A stretch of DNA of 64,000 nt from Limnohabitans sp. DM1 (GTDB lineage Bacteria; Pseudomonadota; Gammaproteobacteria; Burkholderiales; Burkholderiaceae_C): contig NZ_CXOO01000011.1 of assembly GCF_001269385.1 (NCBI RefSeq), positions 124,001 through 188,000 of the forward strand, given 5' to 3'. Position numbers and translations under genes: made by a program. Shown in pieces: positions 5,563 through 31,504 of this stretch; positions within the stretch are counted from its first letter, which is position 1, and each line of letters starts with the position of its first letter. The notes under the pieces are model-generated. The model ran no database searches and was not told the origin of the DNA. It saw only the letters and a program-made list of their open reading frames with translations.

Positions 5563-8835
<3,273 letters not shown>

Positions 8836-8871
8836 GGTCGAATTGAGATTTGGCTGTGTGGGTGAAGGCAG

Positions 8872-13741: not shown

Positions 13742-14227
13742 TCAGTATCTGGCCAACACGCTTGCCATCCGTTTGCAACCCATCTGATTGAAGTGGACCC
13801 CATCGTCCTGCATCTGCTCAACGGGACGCTCATAGACCACATCACCGAACTCCCTGGCCACCCCCAATATTTGGCTGCGTGCCGGGTACTTCGGGGCAGG
13901 AGCAATCCAAATCACCGTCTTAGCCTGGGCAACAATATTGCGAGCCTGTAGCAAACTTGCAGCATTTGCGTTTCGTCCATCGTTTGAGCCCAAACTGATC
14001 AACACCACTTCAAAGGTGTGGGCATCACGCTCAACAGAAACACCAAATCGACGCACCCAGTCTTGCGTTGTGATGCCTTTCTCGGCCATCACCCTGCAGT
14101 GGGGCGCATGGGCACCAGCACCCTGGGCAATCGAGTCGCCCATGACCAAACATCTTGCAAAGCCAGGCCCCGCAATCGACAGGCCTGCCAGCCATAACAA
14201 GCCCATCCGACCCCAAACGAACATCAT
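13742..14227 (-). CDS. Exported SGNH/GDSL-family hydrolase
   Basis: This 161-residue protein begins with a signal peptide (MFVWGRMGLLWLAGLSIAGPGFA, probable cut before RC). The SGNH blocks follow in order: block I VMGDSIAQG with the nucleophile Ser, block III ISLGSNDG, and block V DGVHFNQMG with the catalytic Asp and His. Such enzymes hydrolyse esters or thioesters of lipids, glycans or peptidoglycan; the substrate here is unknown. Its ATG overlaps the topB stop (ATGA at 14224-14227), so it is the last gene of the integrase-topoisomerase unit. A periplasmic cell-envelope role during element transfer is conceivable but unproven. Confidence 0.8.
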   Translation of the reverse strand: MMFVWGRMGLLWLAGLSIAGPGFARCLVMGDSIAQGAGAHAPHCRVMAEKGITTQDWVRRFGVSVERDAHTFEVVLISLGSNDGRNANAASLLQARNIVAQAKTVIWIAPAPKYPARSQILGVAREFGDVVYERPVEQMQDDGVHFNQMGCKRMASVLARY

Positions 14228-16491
14228 GGTTTGCCAGGCATGATGTTTTTGCACGCAGGATAGCCACTACACCCATAAAAAGGCCCCCGTGCGCTTTGCC
14301 TGAGCAGTGTTGGCTTGCCACACGCAGTGCATTTCGGTGTGGTTGACTGCATCACAGGCGCTTTTGCTCCACCCTGAGGAGCGGGCGAAGTTTTGGCTCC
14401 AGGCTTGCCTCCAGCATCTGGCAAGGTGGTTTTGCAATCGGGGTATCCCGTGCACCCCCAAAAGGCCCCAGAAGCGCCTTGACGTTGTCGCATGGCCTTG
14501 CCGCATGATGGGCATGCATGTGTCGTCTTTGAGGCCTCCATGGGCTTTTGCGTGCTGTTCTTTGCCACCGCACTCGACCGCTCTCCCTGGAGAGCTGAGG
14601 GCTTTGGGTTACTGGCCCCCAGCTGCTTGATTTTTTCAATCTGCCCTTTGAGCCAGGTGCCCAGCTGAGATTCGAACGTGGCCAACGGCAAGGAGCCGTC
14701 CTCCACCTTGGACAAATGGTCCTCCCACAAAGCTGTGAGCACCGGGTCGACCATGTGAGGTACGGCCTGCTCCACCACCTCGATGAGCTGTTCACCACGA
14801 TCAGTGGGCACTATGAATTTTCCGGCCTTGTCGAAGTACCCCCGCTTAAAAAGACCGTCCAAAGTCGCTCCACGGGTTGCATCGGTGCCGATCCCCGCTT
14901 TCTCCTTGTTTTGCATGACTTTTTTCAGACGTGGATCGTCGATCTCCCTGTCGACAGACTCCATCGCCGCAATCAAAGTGCCTTCGGTGTAACGCTTGGG
15001 GGGCTGCGTCTGTGTCTTACTCACTTCCGCCTTGCGATTGATCATCTGCTGGCCCACTTTCACATCCGGCAACGCCTGGTCCTTGGGTGTATCTTCACCA
15101 TCGTCCGTGGATTTGGCTTTGCTTTTTGCTTTGGCCGCTGCTGCAGCTTCTTGCAGATCCACATAGGCCAGCTTCCAGCCCTGCACCAAAGGCACCCGTC
15201 CAGTCGCAGCAAACAGCTCGTTTTCACAGCTGCCCTGTATGCGTGTTTCTTGGTACTTGTAAACACCCAAAAACTGAGCCAGGTAGCGACGACGAATCAA
15301 GTCATACAGCAACCGCTCGTTGGCGCTCATGTCAGCCAGTCGGACTGCAGTGTTTGTGGTCGGAATGATTGCGTGGTGGGCCGTGATTTTTTGATCATTG
15401 AAGGCCCTGGAGGGCTTCGATAGATCGGCTTTGGCCACCAGGCTGGTCATCTTGGGATCGGCTTGCTTGATGGCTTCGCACACTTGCGAGGCCTCAGCCA
15501 GCATGCTCATTGGCAGGTGTTCACAATCGCTTCGGGGGTAGGTAGTGGCCTTGTGCTTTTCATACAAGGCCTGCGCCAGATCCAGAACAGCCTTCGCACC
15601 CATGCCATAACGCGCAGAGGCCTCCTTTTGCAGCGACCCCAGCGAGTAGAGCAAGGGAGCAAGCTCGTGCTTGTCATCACGCTCAACTGAAACCAATCGC
15701 CCCATCTTGCCGTTGATTTTCTGGGCGACTGAACGGATGTAGGCTTCATCAACACAGTGCCCATCTTTGTCGAGCTTGTCAGCCTGCGTTTGCCAGCTCA
15801 TAGGCACTGGCGAGCCTGATATCTCCCAAATGGTCTTGAGCACAAAATAGGGTTTGGGCACAAAATTTCTGATGGCTCGTTCACGCCGAACAACCAAGCC
15901 CAAAACCGGTGTCTGCACGCGGCCGCAATGCACCACACCACCTTTTCCACCGGCACCGAATGTCTTGGTCAGCGCCATGGTGAGGTTCATGCCCGCCAAC
16001 CAGTCAGCGCGAGCCCGACCTAAACCAGAGTCGTACAAGGGCCTTGTCTTTTCGCCTGGCAGCATCTTGGCCAAGGCCTTGCGGATGGAGGCGTCATCAA
16101 GCGCCCCAAGCCACAAACGCTTGACCGGGCCACGGTAGCCGCAAAGCTGCATGACCTCCCGGGCAATAACTTCACCTTCCCGGTCGGCATCGGTGGCGAT
16201 CACGACTTCTGACGCACTCTTGAGCAGCTTGCTGACCACTTGAAACTGGGATTGTGTTTTCGGTTTGACATCCATGTGCCAAGTTGCCGGCAACACCGGC
16301 AGGTGATCCATTGACCAGACCTTGAGCTCAGGGTTGTAGTGCTCGGGCGGGGACTGCTCCAGGAGGTGGCCAATGCACCAGGTCACGGTGACGCCATCAC
16401 CCGTCCTGCAGCCATTGCCGGATTGACGAGCACCCACGTGCTTGGCAATGTCGGCTGCCTGAGATGGTTTTTCGCAGATAAAAAGTCTCAT
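14224..16491 (-). CDS. topB: DNA topoisomerase III of the mobile element
   Basis: This 755-residue type IA topoisomerase has the N-terminal TOPRIM domain (MRLFICEKPSQAADIAK, VIATDADREGEVIAREV), the cleavage-domain region GIGTDATRG and YLAQFLG, and two C-terminal zinc ribbons of the CPSCGKAM...GCTGYPDC and CTACGKPT...GCSGYPACK type. TopB relatives are standard passengers of PFGI-1/ICEclc-class elements, where they probably resolve replicating or transferring DNA. The start overlaps the integrase stop (ATGA), so the two are translationally coupled. Confidence 0.96.
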   Translation of the reverse strand: MRLFICEKPSQAADIAKHVGARQSGNGCRTGDGVTVTWCIGHLLEQSPPEHYNPELKVWSMDHLPVLPATWHMDVKPKTQSQFQVVSKLLKSASEVVIATDADREGEVIAREVMQLCGYRGPVKRLWLGALDDASIRKALAKMLPGEKTRPLYDSGLGRARADWLAGMNLTMALTKTFGAGGKGGVVHCGRVQTPVLGLVVRRERAIRNFVPKPYFVLKTIWEISGSPVPMSWQTQADKLDKDGHCVDEAYIRSVAQKINGKMGRLVSVERDDKHELAPLLYSLGSLQKEASARYGMGAKAVLDLAQALYEKHKATTYPRSDCEHLPMSMLAEASQVCEAIKQADPKMTSLVAKADLSKPSRAFNDQKITAHHAIIPTTNTAVRLADMSANERLLYDLIRRRYLAQFLGVYKYQETRIQGSCENELFAATGRVPLVQGWKLAYVDLQEAAAAAKAKSKAKSTDDGEDTPKDQALPDVKVGQQMINRKAEVSKTQTQPPKRYTEGTLIAAMESVDREIDDPRLKKVMQNKEKAGIGTDATRGATLDGLFKRGYFDKAGKFIVPTDRGEQLIEVVEQAVPHMVDPVLTALWEDHLSKVEDGSLPLATFESQLGTWLKGQIEKIKQLGASNPKPSALQGERSSAVAKNSTQKPMEASKTTHACPSCGKAMRQRQGASGAFWGCTGYPDCKTTLPDAGGKPGAKTSPAPQGGAKAPVMQSTTPKCTACGKPTLLRQSARGPFYGCSGYPACKNIMPGKP

Positions 16492-18368
16492 GATGTTTGG
16501 GCTCCCTTGAGGGTTTGAACAGACAGTAAGTCAATGGCTCGCTGCCTCTGTGACAGATCGGCCTTGACGTAGATGCCCGTGGTGGAAATGGACTTGTGGC
16601 CAAGCAGGAGCTGTGTGACAGCCAGATCCCCTTGGGTGGCATTGAGTACCCGATGCGCAAAGGTATGTCGCATGAAATGCGGTGTCGCACGTCGAAAGTT
16701 CTCAGCTAAATCAGGAGATGGACAGGCCATGGCCACCTCCTGAAAAAAGTCCTTGAGCACAATCCTCAATCGGGCTGTGCTCAGTGCGCCATTGCTGACT
16801 TGATCAGGATTGACCGGCTCTCCAATGCAGCCAATCAGGGGCCATTCGCTGGGCTGCAGTCCACTGGTGCCCAGCTGATCAATCGCATGGTCATGCAATG
16901 CCTCCAACACCTCTTCCTTGAGTGGCAAAAGTCGCTCACGAGCGCCCTTGCCAATGACACGCAGACAAGTGACCGTGCCTGCCTCTGCATCAAAGGGCTT
17001 GACCACAGCAGCCCAGCTGCTCGGGATCTCGCCAATGCGTAGCCCCGTGCTTTCCAGTAAAGCAAAAATGGCCACCATGCGCCGCTGCCGGGGGCCGCTG
17101 GGCATCGCCATCAAAACTTGCTGAATCAGCTCCAAGTGGGCATTGCTGAAACAACGCTGAACATCCATTTGCACGCCTCTTTCATGAGGGGTGCGAACCC
17201 TGGAAAATGGATTGGCCTTCAGGTACTGCGTCTCGACCAGAAAACCATACAAATGCCCGATTGCGGCGAATGCTCTGGCAGTGCTTGTTGGTGACAACGG
17301 GCCGCGCATCGTCATGTGATTATTTGCCGAACGGGGTCTGCACCATTGCGCAGGCGGGTTTTGCAAAAATTTGGCATGCGCGGTGGCATCCACCACGGTC
17401 AGATCGGACAGACCCTTGTTCAGCTCCCTCTGTGCCCATAACAGAAGCCTGGCCACATCCCGCGAGTACGCTTTACGAGTGTGAGGAGACAGAAAATCCA
17501 GCGTGCCCATCCATGCCTGCAGGGCTTGCTGATCGCTCTGCGCCCCCAGGGCATTGGTCCCAGTTGCACGTAGCAGCGCGCCAGCCGTAGGGCTCTCCCA
17601 TCCAGACAGAGCCGTAGTAGAACTCGCAACTGGACCGGCCATAACCGGCTCCAAAAAATTCACATGGTCCTGCAGCCACTGGACCAGTCTCACACCACGG
17701 TCTTTGCCGATACCGGGCACCAAGCGATACCAGTGCTTGCCCCGTAAACGCACCAGGGCGGTCAAGTCCGACAACGCTGATACGCCCACAGACCGAAGAT
17801 GACGAACAAGTCCAGTGCCCAGCCAAGCCTCAATGTCATCGGATAAGCAGGGGAGTCGAACGCCAGTGGTTTGAATCAAAGTTAAACCGTGAAGACAGGC
17901 ATCTACATCAACACAGGATGAAGCAGGGGAGGCATTTACCTGGTCAATCTCAGGACCATAACGATCACGGTACAACCCAAGTAACTCAGCCTCGCTCCAA
18001 GCATCAGGATCATCCAGCTCTTCGGAAAACTCTGCCAAAGAAGGCAGTCGGGGTTTCGCGGGTGCTTGCGGTTTCAGCAACGCTGACTTCAGCGTCACCG
18101 CAAGAGTGTGATGCCCCAGGCCCTGCAATATGAGCTGAGCTTGTTGTGCCACGTCACACAGGTAAGTCCGAATCACCCGCAAATCCGAATGCACCTCGGG
18201 CAGAAACCGGCCCCCAGCGGACTCTAAATTCATGCCCTGCAAAACGGCACGCATGAAAGCCAGGTCATGCAGACACAGACCGCTCGATCTTGAAATGCAG
18301 GATTTTCCTGCCGGACGACCGCGTCGGCGGGAATTAATTTTGAAATCCGCTAGGAAGATAACTTCCAT
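16488..18368 (-). CDS. Tyrosine integrase with long N-terminal extension
   Basis: This is a 626-residue site-specific recombinase. The C-terminal catalytic domain has Arg in ESTGLRIGEI, the H-x-x-R box HFMRHTF, the LLLGHKSISTTGIY block and the nucleophile Tyr near residue 600. A SAM-like core-binding domain precedes it (about 280-390). The N-terminal ~250 residues are unusual: an Arg/Gly-rich start (RRRGRPAGKS), a helical region, and a helix-hairpin-helix-like segment LVPGIGKDRGVRLVQWLQ near 210-230. Such extensions occur in integrases of large beta- and gammaproteobacterial elements. A perfect 16-6-16 inverted repeat spans its start codon. Confidence 0.93.
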   Translation of the reverse strand: MEVIFLADFKINSRRRGRPAGKSCISRSSGLCLHDLAFMRAVLQGMNLESAGGRFLPEVHSDLRVIRTYLCDVAQQAQLILQGLGHHTLAVTLKSALLKPQAPAKPRLPSLAEFSEELDDPDAWSEAELLGLYRDRYGPEIDQVNASPASSCVDVDACLHGLTLIQTTGVRLPCLSDDIEAWLGTGLVRHLRSVGVSALSDLTALVRLRGKHWYRLVPGIGKDRGVRLVQWLQDHVNFLEPVMAGPVASSTTALSGWESPTAGALLRATGTNALGAQSDQQALQAWMGTLDFLSPHTRKAYSRDVARLLLWAQRELNKGLSDLTVVDATAHAKFLQNPPAQWCRPRSANNHMTMRGPLSPTSTARAFAAIGHLYGFLVETQYLKANPFSRVRTPHERGVQMDVQRCFSNAHLELIQQVLMAMPSGPRQRRMVAIFALLESTGLRIGEIPSSWAAVVKPFDAEAGTVTCLRVIGKGARERLLPLKEEVLEALHDHAIDQLGTSGLQPSEWPLIGCIGEPVNPDQVSNGALSTARLRIVLKDFFQEVAMACPSPDLAENFRRATPHFMRHTFAHRVLNATQGDLAVTQLLLGHKSISTTGIYVKADLSQRQRAIDLLSVQTLKGAQTS

Positions 18369-18383
18369 TATCTTCCTAGCGGA
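18346..18383. repeat. 16-6-16 perfect inverted repeat over the integrase start
   Basis: The left arm TCCGCTAGGAAGATAA (18346-18361) and right arm TTATCTTCCTAGCGGA (18368-18383) are exact inverse complements around a 6-bp centre, CTTCCA. The geometry matches a tyrosine-recombinase core site (two binding arms around a 6-8 bp crossover) and also a strong autoregulatory operator. It contains the integrase ATG. Confidence 0.85.
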
Positions 18384-18461
18384 AAAAATGCCCTAAATCG
18401 GGGGTCTCAAAAATACGAGAGTCTCTGAACATAAAAATCCCCAATGAAATCAACAAGTTAT

Positions 18462-18567
18462 AAGGGTGGAAGATCTTTCCGTTGGATATGATGGTGATGG
18501 GCGCGAAGTTTCGCAGCCAAGCTCCCACCACCCGACCTACAAACCAAACTTTAAGGAAAGACCTTCC
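18462..18567 (+). promoter_or_regulatory. Structured leader that sequesters a ribosome-binding site (copy 1)
   Basis: GGAAGATCTTTCC (18468-18480) pairs with GGAAAGACCTTCC (18555-18567), which contains the AAGGA ribosome-binding site and touches the ATG. Only one position, an A-C mismatch at pair 6, fails to pair. Inside the enclosed region, GGTGATGGG (18493-18501) pairs with CCCACCACC (18524-18532), capped by GCGAA/TTCGC (18503-18514). The same closing stem with five compensatory changes precedes the small gene at 23379. Confidence 0.7.
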
Positions 18568-18771
18568 ATGAAAACGAAACCTACTGAAACTCAAGAACTC
18601 ACCAGTGCCATGCTCCACGTTGCAGCAGCGCAAATAGCCAGTAACTGGATTTCAGAAAATTCAATAAATCAAGTGGATGCTGAAAAACAATTTCAGCTTG
18701 CTTTCAAACTGATTCAAAGCAGTCACCTCAATCACTTGGATCAGCTCACTTCTGGGCCGCTGAATTCATAA
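18568..18771 (+). CDS. Small protein behind structured leader, 67 residues
   Basis: The soluble, mostly helical protein begins MKTKPTETQELTSAML, followed by HVAAAQIASNWISEN and DAEKQFQLAFKLIQSS. The ATG at 18568 is preceded by AAGGAAAG, which is buried in the leader stem. It runs against the island's main operon and its last 26 bp overlap the end of the convergent minus-strand gene. I do not recognise the family; the shared leader links it to the 59-residue gene at 23379. Confidence 0.65.
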   Translation: MKTKPTETQELTSAMLHVAAAQIASNWISENSINQVDAEKQFQLAFKLIQSSHLNHLDQLTSGPLNS

Positions 18772-21146: not shown

Positions 21147-21575
21147 TTAGGCCTGATCCGAGTTGCCAGCCTGCTCTTGAGTCCGTCTAGCTTTCATGAC
21201 GATTTGCTCAACACGGTTGAGTGCCAGAGAAACGCTTGTTGCATCGACCCGGATCTCGAAAGAATCCGACTTGCCCTGGGCGCGGTCAGCATCGGACACG
21301 CGATAAATGTGCGGGTATGACTGGCCCATCACGACCACTCGCATCCCTTTACGCAGAAGGTTGCCGCAACCTTCTGCCAGGCGCTCATTCCAAACAGTGA
21401 TTTGTGCTGGCTGGGATTTATCTGGGTCCTGAACCAGGTTGCCCTCATGGTCTTCGCGCCAAACATCGCTCATGATCCGCATCTCACAAATCACGCGATC
21501 TTCACCACGGACTTTGATCTGCTTGACAGCGGGGTCAGCCAAAAGATTGCCCGTCAAAATGCTCTCTGTTGCCAT
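21147..21575 (-). CDS. ssb: Single-stranded DNA-binding protein of the element
   Basis: This 142-residue OB-fold protein matches element-encoded SSBs: MATESILTGNLLADPAVKQ, VICEMRIMSDVWRED, ITVWNERLAEGCGNLLRKGMRVVVMGQSY. The acidic tail typical of chromosomal SSB is missing; it ends RRTQEQAGNSDQA. The ATG at 21575 follows AGGGAG by 8 nt; an upstream in-frame extension to 21653 has unnatural composition. It probably coats DNA during element replication or transfer. Confidence 0.88.
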   Translation of the reverse strand: MATESILTGNLLADPAVKQIKVRGEDRVICEMRIMSDVWREDHEGNLVQDPDKSQPAQITVWNERLAEGCGNLLRKGMRVVVMGQSYPHIYRVSDADRAQGKSDSFEIRVDATSVSLALNRVEQIVMKARRTQEQAGNSDQA

Positions 21576-21661
21576 GAAAAAAACTCCCTGACCGAAAATT
21601 TCAGGCGATGGACTCGGCCACTCGCATTGCCTGTTTGGGCAAACCGCCCACATTCAAATCT

Positions 21662-22090
21662 TCATTGCTCAGCCAAAGCATTTGAGGCTTTGCGATTTTT
21701 CAGATGCGCCTGCAGCCGCTTGATCGATTGCTGGTACATCAGAGACAACACATTCAGTTCACCCATGCGGCGATTGACTGATTCAAAGTGCCGCTTCACA
21801 GGTGCTGTCAGCAATTTCATTTCTGGCAGGATGTCCTCCCAGTTGCGATTGCGGCCAAAGGCATACCAGCGCAAGAACCGTGCACCATCCTTGCGGTTTT
21901 CGACCCTGGCGCGGATGCTTGTTCCGTCGACCACTGATGACTCAGCCAAAAGCTCCATCTCAATCAAAATCTGCTTGAGGCACGCTTGCTGAGAACGGAT
22001 CAGGTTCATGAAGGCCGGACGACCGGTGAGTTGGGCCAACACAAAGCCCTCGGTCCCTGGCTGCAACAATTTCTCTTTTACGCCTGTCAT
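21662..22090 (-). CDS. DUF3158 family element protein
   Basis: This 142-residue protein has the DUF3158 hallmark GARFLRWYAFGRNRNWED and the helical C-terminal half VKRHFESVNRRMGELNVLSLMYQQSIKRLQAHL. DUF3158 genes accompany ssb and the TIGR03761 gene in PFGI-1-class elements. Upstream of it on this strand lie 670 bp without a minus-strand gene, holding the duplicated structured sequence. Confidence 0.8.
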   Translation of the reverse strand: MTGVKEKLLQPGTEGFVLAQLTGRPAFMNLIRSQQACLKQILIEMELLAESSVVDGTSIRARVENRKDGARFLRWYAFGRNRNWEDILPEMKLLTAPVKRHFESVNRRMGELNVLSLMYQQSIKRLQAHLKNRKASNALAEQ

Positions 22091-22203
22091 TTCGGCTCAC
22101 TTTCAAATTGCCAAAAGGTCGGGGCGTTGCCCCTTACCCTTAAAGGCCTTTAGGAACACAAAGTTGTGTATTCCGGTCAGTTCCATCAAATCGATAAGAA
22201 GGA

Positions 22204-22431
22204 GGAGAGAGAACAGGGGGCGGACAGCTGCGTGGCTTACAGCTGGGGAAGTCGTAAAAGCCACAGGTGGCCTCACGTCAGCCATCGAATCACCAAGGCA
22301 TACCCGAGTCGTGGCATGTGAGCGAAAAGTGAAAACAGCAACACCATGTCCAAGGCTCAGCGGCGAAAGTCGCACCAGTTCGTCGCCCGATTCACGACGA
22401 CGATTTCCCCCAACGCCCCCTGTCTCTCTCC
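22204..22431 (+). ncRNA. Candidate structured RNA, copy 1
   Basis: The 5' arm at 22204-22222 (GGAGAGAGAACAGGGGGCG) pairs with the 3' arm at 22414-22431 with one bulged A, giving an 18-bp closing helix. Internal hairpins include CAGCTG/CAGCTG (22225-22245), GCCAC-AG-GTGGC (22260-22271), CGGC-GAAA-GTCG with a GNRA tetraloop (22361-22372) and TCGTCG/CGACGA (22380-22400). The GNRA loop exists only when read on the plus strand. No promoter was identified and no known family is recognised. Confidence 0.65.
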
Positions 22432-22525
22432 AAAACTTCAAATCAGACACCACTCACCTCCAACTGATAGCGAACCGACAAACCTGTCCAGTGAGCGGTC
22501 AGTTCCATCGAATCGGTAAGATGGA

Positions 22526-22750
22526 GGAGAGAGAACGGGGGTCGGACAGCTGCGTGGCTTACAGCTGGGGAAGTCGCAGAAGCCACTGGTGGCCACACGC
22601 CTGCCATCGAATCACAAAGGCGTACCCGAGCCAAGACATGTCTGCGAACCATTGAAAATGCACCATGTCCAAGACTCAGCGGCGTGAGCCGTACCCGTTC
22701 GTCGCCTGATTCACGACGACGACTGCCCCTAACGACCCCCGTCTCTCTCC
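22526..22750 (+). ncRNA. Candidate structured RNA, copy 2
   Basis: This copy has the same architecture as copy 1: closing helix 22526-22544 with 22733-22750, same bulged A, and hairpins GCCAC-TG-GTGGC, CGGC-GTGA-GCCG (22680-22691) and TCGTCG/CGACGA (22699-22719). Relative to copy 1 the closing helix has two compensatory changes (G-C to U-A and A-U to G-C), the tetraloop stem changes G-U to G-C, and GAAA becomes GUGA, still GNRA. This is the pattern expected for selection on RNA structure. Confidence 0.65.
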
Positions 22751-22761
22751 AAAACATCAGC

Positions 22762-23241
22762 TTAGGCATCATTCCCCCCGATACCGTCCAGCCCTGGTAA
22801 CTGACTGTCTTTGAGCCCTTGCAGCCGCAAGCTCAGCTCAACCCAGTCAACCCGAAACTTCTGTCCAATCGTGCGTGATCGTGGCCACAAGATGATCAAA
22901 CCAGCGTCAGCAAGGTCGGTAAATGCACGTCTGCAAGACCGTTCAGACAAGAACGTGGTTGAGTAGCGTGAGATGTAATAGCGACCGGAACGTTCTTGGA
23001 ATTGCTTGAGACCATCCTGAAAATGCAAGCGCAGCCCATCCCACATGACCGTGGCTTCGGCCAAAGAGCCCTCACAAACTGCGATCAGAGAAACAAACAA
23101 GCTCGGGGTTAACCCTGAAATGCGCAATGCATCCCATGCCTGAGCTGCCGAATCCAATTGTTCTTCCGTGTAAGAACGAGGCTCAATGGCGAACCTTGAA
23201 AACAACTCATCGTCAGCTGCTGTTGGAAACGGATAGCTCAT
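22762..23241 (-). CDS. Winged-helix element protein, 159 residues
   Basis: This is a soluble protein whose C-terminal half (YYISRYSTTFLSERSCRRAFTDLADAGLIILWPRSR...KFRVDWVELSLRL) has the helix-turn-helix plus wing pattern also seen in the initiator at 24567-26585 and the small gene at 26598. The ATG at 23241 is favoured over 23247 because GGAG lies 8 nt upstream of it. Its promoter-side flank overlaps the structured leader on the other strand. A role in element replication control is inferred from fold and context. Confidence 0.7.
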   Translation of the reverse strand: MSYPFPTAADDELFSRFAIEPRSYTEEQLDSAAQAWDALRISGLTPSLFVSLIAVCEGSLAEATVMWDGLRLHFQDGLKQFQERSGRYYISRYSTTFLSERSCRRAFTDLADAGLIILWPRSRTIGQKFRVDWVELSLRLQGLKDSQLPGLDGIGGNDA

Positions 23242-23258
23242 GAACATGACTCCAAAAA

Positions 23259-23378
23259 AAGGGTGGGAGAGCCTCTCAGGTAAGATTCAAGCGGGGTAGT
23301 TCCATGGGACTCGACCCCCATGGGACGGAACCGACCCCGTTTGTTCATCAACTTCACCCATGAAAGAGAGGCCCTCCC
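23259..23378 (+). promoter_or_regulatory. Structured leader that sequesters a ribosome-binding site (copy 2)
   Basis: GGGAGAGCCTCTC (23265-23277) pairs with GAGAGGCCCTCCC (23366-23378), which holds the GAGAGG ribosome-binding site and abuts the ATG at 23379. The single mismatch is A-C at pair 6, exactly as in the 18468 leader. Both leaders are preceded by AAGGGT. The interior is another strong structure: CGGGGT/ACCCCG with GTTCC/GGAAC and CATGGG/CCCATG around 23290-23335. Confidence 0.7.
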
Positions 23379-23558
23379 ATGACCACAAAAGCGACTGATT
23401 CTGCGAATCAACCAGTCACGCTTGACCAGCTCCAAGACATTCAATTCCGGATCGAAAGCGCCATGCATGCATTGCTTGGCGGTCAGGAAACGCTGGGACT
23501 TGATCCCAATACAGTTCTCGAAATCGATCAACAGATCAGGGCTGTTTCGCTGAATTGA
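23379..23558 (+). CDS. Small protein behind structured leader, 59 residues
   Basis: The predicted protein runs MTTKATDSANQPVTLDQL, then QDIQFRIESAMHALLGG and LDPNTVLEIDQQIRAVSLN: acidic, helical, clearly protein-like. It opposes the island operon and fills most of a 437-bp gap between two minus-strand genes. A hairpin with the features of a terminator follows at 23578. The N-terminus (M-T-T-K-x-T) loosely resembles that of the 67-residue protein at 18568, but the leader is the stronger link. Family unknown. Confidence 0.65.
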   Translation: MTTKATDSANQPVTLDQLQDIQFRIESAMHALLGGQETLGLDPNTVLEIDQQIRAVSLN

Positions 23559-23577
23559 TTCCAGCTTTATTGCCTTA

Positions 23578-23606
23578 GGCTGCTGCCTTTGGATAGCAGC
23601 CTTCCT
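23578..23606 (+). terminator. Hairpin terminator after the 59-residue gene
   Basis: GGCTGCT (23578-23584) and AGCAGCC (23595-23601) form a 7-bp stem around a 10-nt loop, followed by TTCCTT. The U-tract is short, so strength is uncertain. Confidence 0.5.
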
Positions 23607-23678: not shown

Positions 23679-24554
23679 TCAAACAAGCCCCGCAGAAGTC
23701 ACTTCTTCGTCAACATGCTCAACCATGGTCAAGGCCACATCATCAAGAACACGTTGCTCAGCCGCAGAAAGCCGTTCCTTGCGCATCGTGTGGCGTGGTG
23801 CTTTCTTGCCTGTGAAAACCTCGTCGTCCATGGGACCAAAGATTTTTTGTGCCGCCTCAACCCGCTTGGCTGCATCTGGCTGGGTGTTGTTGGGCAAAAA
23901 GTCTGCACGGCTCAGTGGCTTCATTTCATCAGACAGCAAAATTCGCTGAGCTCGAATGGCGCTTTCAAACATGCTCCTGATTTCATGCTTGAGTGCATAG
24001 AGGGCGTTGTGCTGATCCTGTTTGGTCAGCAGGTCTCGACGCTCAGCAGACTTCAGAACACGCACGCACTCATCAAACATGACGATCACCGTGCTCATCA
24101 TGTAGCCATAGGGGGAGTGGTAGCCCAGAGAAACCGATTGGGTTTGCTGAGCCCGGATGATGGTGTACGACAGCCCCATGGACTTGTGCTCATCCATTTT
24201 CTTGATTTGTGGATCGCGAGCCGCTTTGATCATCCGCTTGATTCGCTCAACACGGCTGTCAATGTCGATGAGCGTGGCATCGGCATATGGGTTGTCCTTG
24301 GAAGTCAAACCAAATAGCTGCCGCAGGGCACTTGCCGCATGTCGCGCACCAGGCACACCGAAGCGGTACTGCTCACCAGGTGCACGGCCCAAATACAGCA
24401 ACATGGCTTCACGTGTGTGCAACTCCATCGTGTCCTCTTCAGCAACCAAACGGCTCACCGGCTCATTTTTGGTTGCGCCAGGCTTGGAGCCCTGAGGTGA
24501 TTGCGTCACCTCTTGAGAGGCTTGGACGGTTGTGACAGCTTCTTTTTTGCTCAT
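23679..24554 (-). CDS. TIGR03761 (PFL_4669) family element protein
   Basis: This is a 291-residue member of the PFL_4669/TIGR03761 family, one of the marker genes of PFGI-1-class integrating conjugative elements. Recognisable blocks are MELHTREAMLLYLGR, ALRQLFGLTSKDNPYADATLIDID, VSLGYHSPYGYMMSTVIVMFDE and QKIFGPMDDEVFTGKKAPRH. The first 40 residues are a disordered Ser/Thr/Gln-rich tail. It follows the initiator gene by 12 bp. Biochemical function is unknown; its constant association with parB, ssb and topB suggests DNA processing or maintenance. Confidence 0.85.
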   Translation of the reverse strand: MSKKEAVTTVQASQEVTQSPQGSKPGATKNEPVSRLVAEEDTMELHTREAMLLYLGRAPGEQYRFGVPGARHAASALRQLFGLTSKDNPYADATLIDIDSRVERIKRMIKAARDPQIKKMDEHKSMGLSYTIIRAQQTQSVSLGYHSPYGYMMSTVIVMFDECVRVLKSAERRDLLTKQDQHNALYALKHEIRSMFESAIRAQRILLSDEMKPLSRADFLPNNTQPDAAKRVEAAQKIFGPMDDEVFTGKKAPRHTMRKERLSAAEQRVLDDVALTMVEHVDEEVTSAGLV

Positions 24555-24566
24555 GGTGTTGCCTAG

Positions 24567-26585
24567 TTATGGTTTGACTGGAAGGGGGAGTGAGGTGACC
24601 AATTGACACTGGCTCACCTGGACAAGGGCTGGATTTCGCTGCAGCACATCGACCATGACCTGATCAATCTTGGCTGCGTAGGCCGACTTGATGTGGTCGA
24701 TCTTGAAACGGCTGGCGCACAGTAAAAGCTTTTGACACTGCTGATCCAGCCCGACAGAGATCGGTTTAAGCCACACCTCAATCTGCTGTTCGGGCATGCA
24801 TTGAGGTAGCTGCTCCAAGATTGCAGCCCACAAAGCCACAGCCCGAGGATCCCGAGCTGGTGCAGGCCTGGAGGCTAAAGCGGGCAGGGCAGACTTGATC
24901 GGCGAAGGTGTTTGCTGCACAACCTGATGCTTTGGCTCTACAGCACGGTTGCGGGCCTCCTGCAGCTCATAGGCCCCCGACAACAGCAAGACGCCTTTTT
25001 GCTCTTTGAGCAAAAGCGATCCGAGATAGGTCACTATGCTTCGGACCTGTCCATTTGCGTCAGCGTGAGCCACCTCATCGAGGATCAGCTGCAAACGGTC
25101 GTGTGGCAAGGACTTGGCCACAGGGTGATCAACCACCAATCGCTTGATTGCCGTTGAGGCTGAGCCAGTAGGCCAGATCAGTTGATCAAAAGAAACACCA
25201 CCGCCACCACCATCCTGAGTCGATTGCTTTTGTGCGCTTGTGGTTGATTCAGAGGTAATGGTTGAAGAAGGAGGAGGTGTAGTCTTATTTGTAATCAAAA
25301 ACCGCGCGCCCGCATGTAGGGCTGTGTTTTTCATCCCTAGCGACTGTGAAAAGCCGCCAACTGGATTGAGATTTCCAGCCGACTGAAAGGATGGATTTGA
25401 CTGCTCAAATTGATGTTGAGCCTCATCGGGGTGTAAAACGACCTGTGATTTCCCACCATCAAGATTGACGGAATTCGCCAAACTGGAGGAAGAGGGGGGA
25501 TTTACGGTGCTTGTTGCACCAGATGGCCATGACCTAACCTGTTTCTTGTTTTGGTCGGCCAATTTGGCCGACTGTCCGCAATACGGACGATCGGCCAATT
25601 TGGCCGATGTATTCCCGGGTGACTGGTCAGCCAATTTGGCAGACTGTCCGCAATACGGACGATCCGCCAAATTGGCGGAGATGTTCCCAGGTAACGCACT
25701 CGCCAAATTGGCGGACTTAGCATTCCCCCCCGCTGCTTGCAATCTTGACTTGCCCAGCAAGCCCAGGATGCTTTGCGCGGTATTGCCATGATTGATACCC
25801 CCTAAACGAATCGCAATTAGTTGCTTGCTCAGTTCACTGATGTTCACCTTGATGAAATACCGACGACGTGGGTACTCCATCAAGGCTTGTTCCAGAAGGT
25901 TGAGTTGGCATAATTTTTGCTTGCATGTCCTGATTTGTGATTCCGACAATCCTGTTTCAGCTGTCCATTCAGCCAGGCCGATGGAAAACCATTCGCTGTG
26001 TTTTCCACCGATCAAGGCACGCTGGGTGGCAAGTGCTCGGCTCAGAAACACGGCAGACGTGATGGATTGAGTGAGCTGGCCGTAAACCCTGTAGAACGCC
26101 AAGCTCTTGCCCAATAGGGCTTTCACCTGCTGGGCATTGGACCGCACATCAAAGAGTGACCATTGAACAGGTTCACTGCGAAGTAAGCGGGCCAGGGCTT
26201 GGCTCACGTCTGGCAGGCGAACTCGGAAAGCCAGACGGGCAGGGGTGCCAGAACGTGATTCGTCGATCAGTCCAGCCTTTTTGAGATAAACCCGCGCAGA
26301 TTCTTGTTCGTAGCGGGACAGCCCTGTTTCAAGAGCCCATTGATCCCTCGTTTTGCTGATCCAGCCGCCGTTGGCGACAACATCAACACCCACACGAGTC
26401 CAGTACAGCAATTGACTGAGCATCAGGCCAGCCTTCGGGTCACCAGCGATCCGTGCCAAGTTGGCTGAGTATCCAATTGGACGCTCTGACGCTAGGCTTG
26501 CCAGCAAGGCCCCAATGGGATCAGCTGGAGGCTCCCCGCTTGTGGGCGGGGGAGGCTTCCTAGCGATCAATCCAAATGATTGCAT
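24567..26585 (-). CDS. Replication-initiator-like protein with DnaA domain I-like C-terminus
   Basis: This 672-residue protein contains two winged-helix units: about 45-130 (LSQLLYWTR...WALETGLSRYEQESARVYLKKAGLI) and about 170-260 (VFLSRALATQR...WTAETGLSESQIRTCKQKLCQLNLLEQ). These resemble plasmid and phage initiator DNA-binding domains. Residues 291-344 are five 12-residue repeats around S-A-x-L-A encoded by a palindrome array. A Ser/Thr/Gln-rich linker and a helical domain follow. Residues of about 582-655 (LWAAILEQLPQCMPEQQIEVWLKP, then SRFKIDHIKSAY) align with DnaA domain I, which in DnaA binds DnaB helicase. The probable role is origin recognition plus helicase recruitment for the excised element; this is inference from domain layout. 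Confidence 0.75.
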   Translation of the reverse strand: MQSFGLIARKPPPPTSGEPPADPIGALLASLASERPIGYSANLARIAGDPKAGLMLSQLLYWTRVGVDVVANGGWISKTRDQWALETGLSRYEQESARVYLKKAGLIDESRSGTPARLAFRVRLPDVSQALARLLRSEPVQWSLFDVRSNAQQVKALLGKSLAFYRVYGQLTQSITSAVFLSRALATQRALIGGKHSEWFSIGLAEWTAETGLSESQIRTCKQKLCQLNLLEQALMEYPRRRYFIKVNISELSKQLIAIRLGGINHGNTAQSILGLLGKSRLQAAGGNAKSANLASALPGNISANLADRPYCGQSAKLADQSPGNTSAKLADRPYCGQSAKLADQNKKQVRSWPSGATSTVNPPSSSSLANSVNLDGGKSQVVLHPDEAQHQFEQSNPSFQSAGNLNPVGGFSQSLGMKNTALHAGARFLITNKTTPPPSSTITSESTTSAQKQSTQDGGGGGVSFDQLIWPTGSASTAIKRLVVDHPVAKSLPHDRLQLILDEVAHADANGQVRSIVTYLGSLLLKEQKGVLLLSGAYELQEARNRAVEPKHQVVQQTPSPIKSALPALASRPAPARDPRAVALWAAILEQLPQCMPEQQIEVWLKPISVGLDQQCQKLLLCASRFKIDHIKSAYAAKIDQVMVDVLQRNPALVQVSQCQLVTSLPLPVKP
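25554..25715. repeat. Five palindromes at 36-bp spacing inside the initiator gene
   Basis: Type A palindromes lie at 25554-25572 (GTCGGCCAATTTGGCCGAC, perfect 9+1+9), 25590-25608 (perfect 9+1+9), 25626-25644 (one mismatch), 25663-25679 (perfect 8+1+8) and 25699-25715 (core 6+1+6). Their centres at 25563, 25599, 25635, 25671 and 25707 are exactly 36 bp apart. Two identical type B palindromes, GTCCGCAATACGGAC, sit at 25574-25588 and 25646-25660. Between the 72-bp halves a G-C to C-G arm change is compensated. Candidate iterons of an origin, or ParB sites. Confidence 0.85.
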
Positions 26586-27960: not shown

Positions 27961-28219
27961 TAGATTGCAGTGCTTTATCAGAACAAAAGCGATAAAGAGA
28001 ATGCACATCAAACAGTCGATGGCGATGCAGTAATTGACGGCCCGGATTGAAAAAACACTGATTGGCCAGCTCTTGATAGTGTGCTTTGATGATGTCTTGC
28101 ATCATCATTCGGTCACGACTGACGGCCGCAGCCAACAGGCGTGCCCAATGCTTTTCCAAAAGCGTTTCAAGCGATGGCCTCCAAACGTTCAGGAATTCTT
28201 GGAGCAGAGCGCCTTTCAT
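27536..28219 (-). CDS. Hypothetical island protein, 3' part antisense to another gene
   Basis: The start overlaps the upstream DUF2857 stop by ATGA, and the first ~86 residues (MKGALLQEFLNVWRPSLETL, RMMMQDIIKAHYQELANQCFF) look like a normal helical protein. Beyond residue 86 the frame lies opposite the coiled-coil gene and becomes Cys/His/Gln-rich and less protein-like. Either the gene truly overlaps, or its natural 3' end was replaced when the plus-strand gene arrived and read-through supplies an accidental tail. The 227-residue length is therefore provisional. Confidence 0.45.
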   Translation of the reverse strand: MKGALLQEFLNVWRPSLETLLEKHWARLLAAAVSRDRMMMQDIIKAHYQELANQCFFNPGRQLLHRHRLFDVHSLYRFCSDKALQSIRFDGSLPETPHLVQIFEDAFPQVFQMDYASESVGLCGTSCLAQHLSACNHLDQATHQNCDHALIAKYRQFLAHIYTGDQTHPWKLSSQRRHGIPVLVCGTCPETPFQADQTHLLDLRRSDRQDVLTACQNHIASRLGVKL

Positions 28220-28761
28220 GTTGAAGCTCCTGGGATGTAAATCAGGGGATAGAGACCGGCCAAAGGCAGATATGGAAATTGCTGCGCCAGTACCACCCAG
28301 CGGTCGATTTCGTTGTCGTACTCTTTGATCAGCTTGGACCAGCTCGCATAGATGTCATCGACCGTATGACCTGCAGGCTGGGGCACTGACTTGGGCGCCG
28401 GGGGCGCGTTCAACTCTTTGCGCAGTTCAATCCAGCGATCCCGTGACAGATTGAAAAGTCGCCTTATCAGCGGAAAATTTGCCTGGCGCAGAATCAATAT
28501 GCGTAAAGCTGCGTCACGTCTTTCTTTTTCTTGAAGACCTTGTGCGATCCAACTGACACCATCAAGTTGGACCCATAGACGTAGAGGGACTTCTTGTGGC
28601 TGTTCCAGCGTCAGCTTCGTCAATGTCTGGCGCATGTCGTCAGATAAATTGAGGGCTTGGTCGGACAGCAGCTCGATGGCCGCAATGCGGCTCAGCGTCG
28701 TAGAGCGTAAGCAAACCCACCCCGAGGTGCCGGGTGGTGGCTGAGAGACGACGGCGCTCAT
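28216..28761 (-). CDS. DUF2857 family element protein
   Basis: This 181-residue protein has the DUF2857 pattern: DQALNLSDDMRQTLTKLTLEQ, DAALRILILRQANFPLIRRLFNLSRDRWIELRKEL and the closing AQQFPYLPLAGLYPLIY. It directly follows parB with a TGATG overlap; a GTG at 28764 is the alternative start. DUF2857 genes are regular neighbours of the parA-parB pair in this class of element; some relatives act as regulators, but the role here is not determined. Confidence 0.8.
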   Translation of the reverse strand: MSAVVSQPPPGTSGWVCLRSTTLSRIAAIELLSDQALNLSDDMRQTLTKLTLEQPQEVPLRLWVQLDGVSWIAQGLQEKERRDAALRILILRQANFPLIRRLFNLSRDRWIELRKELNAPPAPKSVPQPAGHTVDDIYASWSKLIKEYDNEIDRWVVLAQQFPYLPLAGLYPLIYIPGAST

Positions 28762-30623
28762 CACTGCTGCTCCTGTTGGCTCAGCAGCCTAAAAGTGCCA
28801 ACTGCTTTGACAAGCTCACGGGCGTATTCGCCCACGGGGTTAGACAAATCGGTCAACAGTTCCAGGGTGTAGTAGCCGTCAGCCTGATAGGTTCCCCCCA
28901 GATGCGTTTGTACAAATTGCATCCAGCCGTCCTGATCTTCTGCCCGCGCCCTGAATCCGGCGGGGCCAGTATCGAACAGCGCAAAACCCCTTACACCCTG
29001 CTCGTTGGTGACTTGATGATGAAACCAGTCGACGGTCAGCTGACCTGACATGGTGGCCAAAAGCCACCATGCCTGCGCGGCAAAGTCAGTGGCACTGACA
29101 CCCAGCGAGCTGGCTGGTGCATCCATGAAATAACCCAGCGGCATTCCAGGCGCATTGCGCAAGAGGGGAGTCAACGATGCATAGTCAGTCAAATCCATGA
29201 TGCAGCTGCGCATGCTTTCAACAGCCATTTCCAGGCTGGTGGTACCGGGCAGCTGGCCCTGTTCACCAATCGGGTCTGCGCCACCTTCAAATGGGGCTGT
29301 ACCAGTGTTGTTTTGCCCATCTACAGTGCCAGGATTAGGAATCCTCTTGAGGAGATGCTCTGGGGCTGTTTTGACGCCATTCAGGGCTGAGGGCACTCGG
29401 CCTGTTGGTACAACGTAATCAGAGTCAGCGACTTCATCTTGTTCACCTGACGGTGTATGAGTGCTGGTGTCGTAATCACCGCTGTTGTCTTGACCACCAC
29501 CCACAATGTCAGACTGGTCTGAGCCTGTACCAGCGCCAAGTAAGTCGGTATCAGCGACACCAGACTCAACGCCGTAATTTCCAGGAGTGGTGCTGGCAGC
29601 AGAAGTCGCTTGGGGAGAACGCAATTGATCCAAGGTACTTTGCAATTGGGCGACCGTGATCGTGCGATCAGCTGAGATGGCTTGCATGCATGCGCTCAGC
29701 TCTGCTTCAGTTAGGCCGAACCATGCGGATGCCATTCTGGCCAAGTGCGCTTCGAGATCGCGGGCCAATGAAGTTGGCTTTGCGTCATCGAGTTCATACT
29801 CACTTGTTGCATTCATCAGACCTTGATCATCTTGATCGGCAGCAAACGATTGAAGCCATTCTGAATAGGCTGCGTCAAGGGAATTAGCTGATTTGCTGCT
29901 TTCGAATAATTTGGATCGAATAGATTGAAGCCCAGTGTATTGAGGGCGTAACTTACTTGGCACATCAGCACTACCCAATTTCTTGGCCAAATCACCTAAT
30001 TGCGACAACTTTGTGATCGTAAATTCATAATCACTCAGGGCCGTTTTTTCCAGGGAAAGGCCTTGCTTCTTGAGTTCAGCAGCGAAGTCTCGCAGCGAAA
30101 TATCACGCCCAAGCTCCTGAGAGCGGAGCTTTCGTAACTCAAGATAGCTGTTGGCGGTATCCCAAAAGCACATGGCAGAACGAGTTAAGTTCTCAGACAT
30201 GTGCCCCACCAGCAAGTGCGATTCGGCCTTGAAATTCACCAGATCGAAGTCAAGACTTGTGAACCGTTCTGGATATTCTTCAGCCAGTTCCCAGAGGATG
30301 GACAACCGTGTATTTCCGCCCTTGGCCAGGATGTATCGGTCGCTTCCTGGTCGTTTGGTCACGGCAAGGTTTTGATCCAGTCCCCGATCAAGGATGGATT
30401 CTTTGATTTCTTCGCGCTTTTCGTTTGGCCGTGTGCGGGGGTTGCGCTCATAGGTGCCGACATCACGGACTTTCAGACGAATGATGGCGCGACCGTCAAA
30501 GTCGCCTGGTTTGGAGGTGGGCATGGGGTTGCCTGTGCCAGTGCTGGTTTTCAATTGTTCTTGCTGATCCATTTGCTCTTTCAGCGCCTGACGCATGTCG
30601 TTTGCACTCAGTCGCTTACTCAT
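28761..30623 (-). CDS. parB: ParB family partition protein, PFGI-1 element class
   Basis: This is a 620-residue element-type ParB. The N-terminal ParB/Srx nuclease-like domain is clear (IIRLKVRDVGTYERNPRTRPNEKREEIKESI, LAVTKRPGSDRYILAKGGNTRLSILWEL), followed by the helix-turn-helix region (RDISLRDFAAELKKQGLSLEKTALSDYEF). Residues of about 330-470 are a low-complexity Asp/Gly/Ser/Thr linker, and a C-terminal domain of about 150 residues completes the protein. The start at 30623 overlaps the parA stop by ATGA. It should bind parS-like sites on the element. Confidence 0.9.
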   Translation of the reverse strand: MSKRLSANDMRQALKEQMDQQEQLKTSTGTGNPMPTSKPGDFDGRAIIRLKVRDVGTYERNPRTRPNEKREEIKESILDRGLDQNLAVTKRPGSDRYILAKGGNTRLSILWELAEEYPERFTSLDFDLVNFKAESHLLVGHMSENLTRSAMCFWDTANSYLELRKLRSQELGRDISLRDFAAELKKQGLSLEKTALSDYEFTITKLSQLGDLAKKLGSADVPSKLRPQYTGLQSIRSKLFESSKSANSLDAAYSEWLQSFAADQDDQGLMNATSEYELDDAKPTSLARDLEAHLARMASAWFGLTEAELSACMQAISADRTITVAQLQSTLDQLRSPQATSAASTTPGNYGVESGVADTDLLGAGTGSDQSDIVGGGQDNSGDYDTSTHTPSGEQDEVADSDYVVPTGRVPSALNGVKTAPEHLLKRIPNPGTVDGQNNTGTAPFEGGADPIGEQGQLPGTTSLEMAVESMRSCIMDLTDYASLTPLLRNAPGMPLGYFMDAPASSLGVSATDFAAQAWWLLATMSGQLTVDWFHHQVTNEQGVRGFALFDTGPAGFRARAEDQDGWMQFVQTHLGGTYQADGYYTLELLTDLSNPVGEYARELVKAVGTFRLLSQQEQQ

Positions 30624-31504
30624 TTGGCGTCTCCAATTGGCTGATGCCCAGGGAGCCACAGACCTTTTAGGTTTGGCATGACTTCGTGCAAAAGTGCATG
30701 CATGACCTGCGACGGCGTGACATTCGCATCGCTGTCCAGCTCATGTACTGGGCGCCGCAATGAGCGGCACTGCTCATAGACGGTGGAGTAGGGGACTTTT
30801 GTGTCAAGCAGCCTGATGGTTGGATGGCTGCGAAACTGGTCACGAATGGCCTCTTCAACCATTCGTGCGTTAGTGGTTCGCGGCATCGCGTTGACAAAAA
30901 TCGCCAGCTGGCCTGCTCGCATTTCCGGAATCATGTCGCTCATGACGTTGAGCTGTGACAGCATCTCCAGCGTGCCGGTGATGAACTCGCTGAAATTGAG
31001 CATGTCCGGTTTGATGGGGGTGAGCATCAAATCGGCAGCCATGGCCGCAGTGCGTTGAAGCTCGCCTTTGGCGCCCTGGGTGTCGATGATCACCAGGTCA
31101 AAGTTTTCTCGGATGATGGGCTGACGGACTGCGCGTTTGAGCAGCAGCAGCCGATCTTCACGCTCCTTGAGCCAGGCCTGGATGTGGTCTTCCATGTTGG
31201 AAGGCAACAGCCAGAGGTTTTGAACATTGGTTTCGACAATGTCACCATCAAGGATGACACCACCACGAGAAATCACCTGGTTCATGCCTGGTGACTCTTT
31301 GGTCAGTGGCGTCTGTGTGCCGAAGAATTTCGACAGCGCCGGTTGCATGTCTGCATCGATGAGCAGCACGCGCTGACCAAGCGCTGCAGCGAGGCCACCC
31401 AAGTTGGCCGCAGTGGTTGTTTTACCAGCGCCGCCCTTGGTGTTGACGACTGATATGACCGTTGTACTTTTCACAAAATGCTCCTGTTGTTCGTGTTTGG
31501 ACAC
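30620..31504 (-). CDS. parA: ParA/MinD-type partition ATPase
   Basis: This 294-residue ParA has the deviant Walker A VVNTKGGAGKTTTAANLG with signature Lys, LLIDADMQPALSKFFG (Walker A') and DLVIIDTQGAKGEL (Walker B). No N-terminal DNA-binding domain is present, as in element and type Ib ParAs. It is the first gene of the long minus-strand unit and so probably lies near the right end of the island. The 168 bp upstream to the ankyrin gene should contain its promoter, but no end sequence could be recognised there. Confidence 0.92.
   Translation of the reverse strand: MSKHEQQEHFVKSTTVISVVNTKGGAGKTTTAANLGGLAAALGQRVLLIDADMQPALSKFFGTQTPLTKESPGMNQVISRGGVILDGDIVETNVQNLWLLPSNMEDHIQAWLKEREDRLLLLKRAVRQPIIRENFDLVIIDTQGAKGELQRTAAMAADLMLTPIKPDMLNFSEFITGTLEMLSQLNVMSDMIPEMRAGQLAIFVNAMPRTTNARMVEEAIRDQFRSHPTIRLLDTKVPYSTVYEQCRSLRRPVHELDSDANVTPSQVMHALLHEVMPNLKGLWLPGHQPIGDAK

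Follow-up and report, generated by a model that had tools for sequence, protein, structure and literature searches.

A lineage-restricted, structurally constrained non-coding element between acaB and ssb of an ICE-type island in Limnohabitans

The island and its operon

We analyze a window of 64,000 nt (the whole stretch of DNA under study) from a 4.9-Mb genome that is grouped in the same genus as Limnohabitans sp. T6-5. About 11.7-31.5 kb of the window is an ICE-type island whose core genes lie on the minus strand (Table 1). In this tightly packed operon, a 671-nt gap between acaB and ssb (22091-22761) houses two copies, W1 and W2, of a sequence that we call element A. A first-pass annotation, made from the letters alone, had described a tandemly duplicated, element-encoded structured RNA at this place. 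The two tandem copies are real, with a repeated unit of about 265 nt rather than the ~228 nt given there, and they lie within an operon of the ICE type (AcaB, ParB/ParA, SSB, TopB); the searches turned up one homologue only, in the T6-5 sister island.

Several other features of the neighbourhood were recorded. Type I restriction R and S genes occupy 5563-10173, left of the island, and a tandem 72-nt repeat (86% identical, 25552-25695) lies inside the gene of the DnaA_N-domain protein. At the integrase start, 18346-18383 forms a perfect 16-bp inverted repeat with a 6-nt spacer, TCCGCTAGGAAGATAA-CTTCCA-TTATCTTCCTAGCGGA, whose core is also present in T6-5 and which looks like a tyrosine-recombinase core site or an operator. 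A TraI_2 relaxase gene is found on a different contig from the array in the window's genome (G000:C16:19314-20270) and on the array's own contig in T6-5 (G451:C2:253498-254454), about 60 kb off; in a similar gene row of Nitrogeniibacter, a mobH relaxase gene directly precedes parA. The island in the window may have been cut short, or may be merely mobilizable.

Of the 23 acaB regions that were fetched, 21 contain the 20-nt motif AAGGCCTTTAAGGGTAAGGG in the acaB-ssb interval with no more than 4 mismatches, among other places at L062 8830, L063 8897, L065 9408 and L066 1154; one of the two regions without it, L067, ends at acaB. By eye, its translation is frequently K[AP]F[KT]G[KR]G, and in L063, where the gene table is incomplete, the motif falls outside the listed genes. 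It is possibly a conserved DNA site.

Table 1. Positions of the genes, element copies and motifs discussed in the text (window coordinates unless a locus is named).
Feature	Position	Strand	Remark
ParA	30620-31504	-	profile match
ParB	28761-30659	-	125 bits, under the NCBIfam cut-off of 143.75
DUF2857-like	28216-28764	-	under the Pfam cut-off
DnaA_N-domain protein	24567-26585	-	profile match
acaB / PFL_4669 family gene	23679-24554	-	above the Pfam cut-off; 107 bits vs the NCBIfam cut-off of 110.7
Element B copy 1	23257-23386	+	leads a 59-aa ORF, 23379-23558 (+)
Gene upstream of the element A array	22762-23247	-	weak relatives in genomes G029 and G239
W2, part common to all five known copies	22497-22759	+	structured core 22526-22750
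W2 closing helix, 5' arm	22526-22544	+	pairs with 22733-22750, same bulged A
W2 closing helix, 3' arm	22733-22750	+	pairs with 22526-22544
Open frame through W2, 109 aa	22443-22772	-	no protein-selection signal
W1, part common to all five known copies	22175-22440	+	structured core 22204-22431
W1 closing helix, 5' arm	22204-22222	+	pairs with 22414-22431, one bulged A
W1 closing helix, 3' arm	22414-22431	+	pairs with 22204-22222
W1 hairpin, loop GUGGCUU	22232-22264	+	loop able to pair with downstream AAGCCAC, 7 bp
W1 GNRA hairpin, GAAA loop	22360-22373	+	GUGA at the W2 equivalent
Open frame through W1, 116 aa	22103-22453	-	no protein-selection signal
Imperfect palindrome GGAACACAAAGTTGTGTATTCC bordering W1	22153-22174		strand not assigned; possibly operator-like
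20-nt motif AAGGCCTTTAAGGGTAAGGG between acaB and ssb	22131-22150	-	in 21/23 fetched acaB regions at up to 4 mismatches
g21662, downstream of the array on the operon strand	21662-22090	-	its product is weakly related (E 5.6e-6) to one encoded next to ssb in G018
ssb-like gene (SSB)	21147-21653	-	profile match
Element B copy 2	18460-18575	+	leads a 67-aa ORF, 18568-18771 (+)
Tyrosine recombinase (integrase)	16488-18368	-	profile match
TopB	14224-16491	-	profile match
T6-5 copies of element A (T1, T2, T3)	L006 1703-1968, 2025-2287, 2313-2578		three, in the sister island

Element A folds strongly on both strands

W1 and W2 are 83% identical overall and align as two blocks (22174-22343 with 22496-22665 at 84%; 22342-22458 with 22661-22777 at 83%). 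Checked letter by letter, both copies carry the 18-bp closing helix with the same bulged A that had been reported for them. The GAAA and GUGA loops of the GNRA hairpin exist on the plus strand only, as the annotation had it, and the minimum-free-energy (MFE) folds of the minus strand contain no GNRA loop. Pairing of the GUGGCUU loop with AAGCCAC is standard in 35 of 35 cells across the five known copies (one of them G-U), and 6 of its 7 pairs are invariant; because it hardly varies, this pairing is no test of a pseudoknot.

On the plus strand, W1 folds at -103.5 kcal/mol (z -6.35) and W2 at -99.7 kcal/mol (z -5.24), and none of 200 dinucleotide shuffles is as good in either case. Minus-strand folds are nearly as good (z -4.37 for W1 and -5.83 for W2; again 0/200 shuffles each). 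DNA parameters, used without a shuffle control, give -52.4 and -53.4 kcal/mol on the plus strand and -49.6 and -56.6 kcal/mol on the minus strand. The MFE folds of the two copies differ in their inner helices on both strands, with four shared hairpins on plus and three on minus. The island was also scanned coarsely, with 103 grid windows of 240 nt, two further windows placed on W1 and W2, 12 shuffles per window and a fixed yardstick; the placed windows rank 2nd and 3rd of 105. When the grid windows are ranked by themselves, the W1 window 22206-22445 is 2nd and no W2 window appears among the 14 listed; the first rank goes to 18206-18445, which contains the perfect 16-bp palindrome at the integrase start.

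The fold is kept while the letters change

The five copies share a consensus structure of 69 pairs in 11 helices, in which 98.3% of 343 pair cells are paired, versus 36-52% in slid controls. Five pairs change on both sides (A3 columns 19/225, 24/220, 4/241, 56/207 and 118/153), and these include the two double changes named at first reading, A-U/G-C at 19/225 and G-C/U-A at 24/220. Double-change cells number 7 against a shuffled mean of 3.4, a count reached by 1 of 500 shuffles, and the covariation score is 0.093 versus 0.067 shuffled (1/500 as high). As many pairs with a double change arise in 31/500 shuffles, and as many pair types in 249/500. Some pairs are broken: 4/241 in two of the five copies, and 24/220, 56/207, 80/104 and 84/100 in one each; pair 126/143 meets a gap in two.

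Five copies amount to few lineages, with W2 and T2 99.3% identical. The 5' end of T1 resembles W2/T2 and its 3' end resembles W1, a mosaic look that suggests conversion between copies. The covariation of element A is shallow, coming from few lineages and from copies that recombine. Secondary structure is conserved beyond chance within these few lineages, with one measure matched in 31/500 shuffles.

We also re-placed the observed changes at random (300 mutants each) in five sequence-sharing comparisons among W1, W2 and T3. The real changes cost less fold energy than randomly placed ones on both strands, with P of 0.013, 0.000, 0.040, 0.000 and 0.030 on plus and 0.003, 0.003, 0.007, 0.017 and 0.007 on minus. 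Fold energy, substitution test and pair counts all back the description of the element as structured.

No sign of protein selection in the open frames

The minus strand is open through both W1 and W2, which the first-pass annotation had passed over. One minus and one plus frame are open in all five copies; in the window the minus frames are tiled with 11-nt overlaps, and in T2/T3 the minus frame is a single one of 213 aa. Tandem small protein genes on the minus strand, with the structure a by-product of composition, would account for these frames and for a pooled synonymous fraction of 0.38 in the open minus frame versus 0.29 expected. This excess is slight, however, and is equalled in the open plus frame. 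The 50 variable sites of the five-copy alignment are spread 17/16/17 over the codon positions, and the W1/W2 differences 11/13/12. By comparison, window and T6-5 differ at 7/4/27 sites of positions 1/2/3 in the upstream gene 22762-23247 and at 3/3/19 in acaB; g21662 and ssb, with 6 differing sites each, had too few to serve as controls. Since variation is flat across codon positions in the array and third-position-biased in its two coding neighbours, the open minus frames bear no sign of upkeep as protein, and Pfam and NCBIfam searches at E up to 0.001 gave no match for them. Purifying selection on a minus-strand reading frame, which had been named in advance as an outcome that would overturn the non-coding description, is thus not seen, and that description is supported. 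The protein-gene reading is disfavoured as regards selection, and we consider it very improbable. A small plus-strand protein related to a small ORF of G029 was also considered and dropped (E 0.065 over 8 residues, not meaningful).

Relatives of element A were found only in a sister island

A pattern scan of genome-collection contigs returned three contigs, of which one is genuine, that of Limnohabitans sp. T6-5. Its island is 94-97% identical to the window's from 11.7 to 29.8 kb, excluding the array and its upstream side, and carries three copies where the window has two. From 30.0 kb (the parA end, then chromosomal genes) T6-5 is collinear at 78-86%; the left flanks are not alike, and for bases 1-1250 of the window T6-5 offers one 69% piece and no close match.

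Broader searches found little else. In the genus, a DNA search at E up to 1 matched somewhere in 60 of 90 genomes, with the element present in 2 of the 90 and the rest being pieces of 16-40 nt. The family sample yielded the window's own genome only, both by DNA (1/299) and by covariance model R1 (1/399, five candidates scored per genome). With W1 and W2 as queries and blastn words of 11, 72,556 PLSDB plasmid records gave no match at E up to 1e-5, and W1 had no match in the INPHARED phage collection. Covariance scores never rose above 8.3 bits in the 23 acaB regions (20 selected from matches, three from plasmids) or above 7.2 bits in five further stretches. Rfam 15 has no match at gathering score in the 64 kb; at E up to 5, 22000-22900 gives a single match, to the human lncRNA NPPA-AS1_3, that lies outside the element (22040-22072) and scores 13.6 versus 55 bits. 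Keyword searches of the open-access literature found no description of element A in the titles and abstract starts of the matches listed.

Candidates from pattern scans were rejected one after another. L007 (Pelomonas) reaches 17.2 bits but was selected by the pattern itself, and nothing else shared was seen; L008 (Ruminococcus) has no BLAST match and no covariance match up to E 10. Of the viral scans, one returned nothing and the others 18, 1 and 12 contigs. The 18 (L009-L026) score at best 15.1 bits, mostly through a short helix that the pattern itself includes; by reading, the lone contig shares nothing beyond the searched 20 nt, and nine of the 12 represent one conserved sequence in which no further likeness to element A was seen.

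In G029, the upstream gene is followed by 117 nt and then by the conserved 20-nt motif, and element A is absent. With relatives confined to T6-5 and none at the G029 place, element A is, as far as sampled, a lineage-special insertion of varying number. Two short palindromes of different sequence, around TTGTTCACCGTGAACA and GAAAAGTTGGTAACAGTTACCAACTTTTC (by eye), stand at its place in G029 (L065 9291-9407).

Discrete units with inverted ends, and a T2/T3 spacer that by reading is unlike the W1/W2 spacer, could also belong to a dispersed small mobile repeat (MITE-like or REP-like) without function for its host element. Against such a repeat, the window's own genome has no copy beyond the array's two at E up to 0.001, T6-5 has none outside its three-copy array except a 16-nt piece at E 0.88, and the substitutions preserve the fold. 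This reading is already disfavoured, and we hold it to be very unlikely. Given the kept fold, the missing protein signal, the lack of an Rfam match and, among the genomes searched, relatives in T6-5 only, element A, between acaB and ssb, is non-coding, structurally constrained and restricted to one lineage.

Element B, a second family of candidate leaders

Element B is a leader of about 115-130 nt, with two copies in the window. In copy 1, both an SD-like GAGAGG and the start codon are part of a closing helix formed with the 5' end; across the family, the 3' end holds an SD-like stretch and a start codon (ATG, once GTG) paired with the 5' end. The fold is predicted to occlude the SD-like site and start codon of plus-strand ORFs. 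The ORFs that follow are 59-286 aa long; one G456 copy has ATA in place of ATG, with no ORF listed. Relatives occur in T6-5 (four places), G029 (two), G065, G328, G087 and G456 (two). In the window, T6-5, G029 C11, G065, G328, G456 and G087, element B and the operon genes point in opposite directions, and no operon gene was found near the copy of G029 C26. The T6-5 counterpart of copy 2 (L091 13786-13901) leads a different 244-aa ORF; the leader is thus reused ahead of different ORFs.

Alignment A6 has 15 rows, 13 of them distinct. One T6-5 copy is represented three times among these, once in full and as two separate halves, so that full-length distinct rows number 11. Paired cells make up 90.1% of 372, a figure inflated because the alignment was fitted to its model, and 21 of 40 pairs have changed on both sides. 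Double-change cells number 63, versus 18.6 in shuffles (0/500 as many) and at most 17 in slid controls. On the minus strand, the element B places score far lower with R3 (27.0 versus 120.5 bits for the best). Of the two elements, B is the better-supported candidate RNA.

R2 with stricter filters found element B in 3 of 299 genomes of the family sample, the known carrier G065 not being among the matches; R3 found it in 4 of 90 in the genus sample, and the order sample gave 1 of 61, the own genome only. The G328 copy had no blastn match among plasmids. Rfam has no match up to E 5 for 23200-23600 and none at gathering score for 18460-18575. A promoter reading, with TAWGAT as the -10 box, was rejected after a count showed no fixed -35 distance. 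In T6-5, two small genes, L006 3385-3861 (-) and L092 4129-4527 (-), are convergent with element B ORFs and are missing at the window's equivalent place. Their products, of 158 and 132 aa, are membrane-protein-like by eye; the 158-aa one matched nothing in Pfam (E up to 1) or among plasmids.

Which strand and which molecule

The plus-strand RNA proposed by the first-pass annotation is favoured by the GNRA loops, though both strands fold, the G-U lean is small and no sigma-70-like promoter is seen on either strand. With wobble pairs forbidden in folding, G-U versus C-A cells stand at 6:2 for the plus-derived structure and 5:3 for the minus-derived one, a lean toward plus that is not significant. 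A simple scan of 21600-23400 for promoters of the sigma-70-like type found no -35/-10 pair at or above 9/12 on either strand. The element B leaders flank element A on both sides, on the same plus strand and ahead of ORFs, and we count this for a plus-strand RNA. Plus-strand RNA is thus the favoured identity of element A on the GNRA loops, the slight G-U excess and the nearby plus-strand leaders.

Two other readings are live rivals. Structure in the minus-strand operon mRNA, where the intergenic copies might stabilise the transcript, serve as a processing site or cause attenuation between acaB and ssb, would suit copies inside a tightly packed minus-strand operon, as it would the minus z-scores of -4.37 and -5.83 and a substitution test equally significant on minus. 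ICEclc has the orf95213-inrR-ssb cluster under a regulated promoter of its own, PinR (PMC3395598), so control at element A's place is plausible. The minus strand, however, lacks GNRA loops, the G-U/C-A cells lean toward plus (not significantly), and W1 and W2 differ in their inner helices while sharing four hairpins on plus and three on minus. We judge a role in the mRNA unlikely, though worth keeping in view.

The same degree of doubt attaches to a structured single-stranded DNA (ssDNA) site, folded from one strand of the transferred element, either a Frpo/ssi-like single-strand promoter or an sso-like origin near ssb, which would serve early ssb production or priming of the complementary strand. 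With its large, imperfect inverted-repeat units, present as similar copies a short way upstream of ssb, the array recalls Frpo1/Frpo2 of F (PMC9849209). The ssb genes have the plus strand as their template, and this strand also folds under DNA parameters (no shuffle control); the relaxase genes TraI_2, about 60 kb away on the array's contig in T6-5, and mobH, ahead of parA in Nitrogeniibacter, suit this reading as well. The missing -35/-10 pair at or above 9/12 on either strand speaks against it, as do a G+C-rich closing stem (13/19 in the W1 5' arm), the lack of a match in PLSDB (W1, W2) or INPHARED (W1), and the GNRA loops, which weakly indicate RNA.

Plus-strand RNA remains our first choice. 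We put at a little under one half (about 0.48) the probability that W1/W2 are a lineage-specific, structurally constrained non-coding element that is most likely a plus-strand RNA, antisense to the operon, and tunes the ssb arm; structure, lack of a protein-selection signal, position and the difference in copy number are observed, and strand, transcription and function are what we infer here. Element A would have been inserted into an ICE-type core operon, with acaB to one side and ssb to the other, and then multiplied in tandem, to two copies in the window and three in T6-5. Its working form would be an RNA made from the plus strand, antisense to the operon, and folded as a closed multi-branched domain with the 18-bp closing helix, the GNRA hairpin and a loop capable of a 7-bp pseudoknot. 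Because no plus-strand start codon is seen at its 3' end, a riboswitch-like cis leader was set aside, and the element would act as a stand-alone RNA. The ssb arm might then be tuned via antisense transcription or protein binding, with copy number setting the dose; by an alternative route, element A could act as an ssDNA promoter for expression of the ssb arm.

Two further candidates for the nature of element A were rejected: a B-like architecture, with no sequence relation visible by eye, and cobalamin-riboswitch-like boxes, with no Rfam match.

Wider meaning

What is known of how ICEs regulate their excision and establishment concerns mainly proteins and promoters, PinR of ICEclc being one example (PMC3395598). 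AcaB/PFL_4669-type ICEs in Limnohabitans and relatives might have a counter-strand regulatory layer in which covarying element B leader RNAs mask ribosome sites and start codons of small accessory genes and, in one lineage, a tandem array of element A, as a stand-alone structured RNA, lies between them by ssb, the two jointly timing establishment during transfer; we regard this larger picture as doubtful, more so than either rival above. A structured non-coding array at the place of acaB-ssb control, together with covarying leaders on the operon's opposite strand, would bring RNA (or folded ssDNA) control into an ICE backbone that is widespread. Limnohabitans sp. T6-5, which we take to be a cultured freshwater isolate, carries three A and four B copies and permits direct testing.

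Comparison with known systems

GOLLD, ROOL and OLE, orphan structured RNA candidates, occur in a mobile-element setting. Like element A, they are branched, stand-alone structured sequences with no assigned function, and we take element A to be the smaller. Element A differs in having no Rfam 15 match and in being found in one island lineage only.

Frpo1 and Frpo2 of F are 92% identical, Frpo2 lies upstream of ssb, and it is needed for early post-transfer ssb expression (PMC9849209). The Frpo/ssi sequences of F and ColIb-P9 share with element A that they are non-coding, strongly folded and present in near-identical copies, one of them just upstream of the ssb of a conjugative element (PMC9849209, PMC11541004). 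Element A lies upstream of ssb and folds on the plus strand, the ssb template. Unlike Frpo/ssi, it has no recognisable -35/-10 pair in the folded strand (0 sites at or above 9/12 in 21600-23400) and no blastn match in the plasmid collection; it is also tandem and branched, whereas the Frpo copies are about 5 kb apart.

ICEBs1 of Bacillus has an sso1 that resembles the sso of pBAA1 in sequence and structure (PMC4595007). The ICEBs1 sso and element A are both ICE-borne structured non-coding DNA with several stem-loops, the folds being compared by description only (PMC4595007). Element A is unlike that sso in its tandem copies and in having no match in the plasmid collection.

The place of element A has its own precedent in ICEclc. 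Here we take orf95213 to be the acaB counterpart and inrR the DUF3158 counterpart. Element A's place is then the corresponding region of a related ICE backbone and the ICEclc control point, where the regulated promoter PinR drives the orf95213-inrR-ssb cluster (PMC3395598). ICEclc has a regulated promoter there; the structured array, missing from the G029 equivalent, is an addition in the Limnohabitans island.
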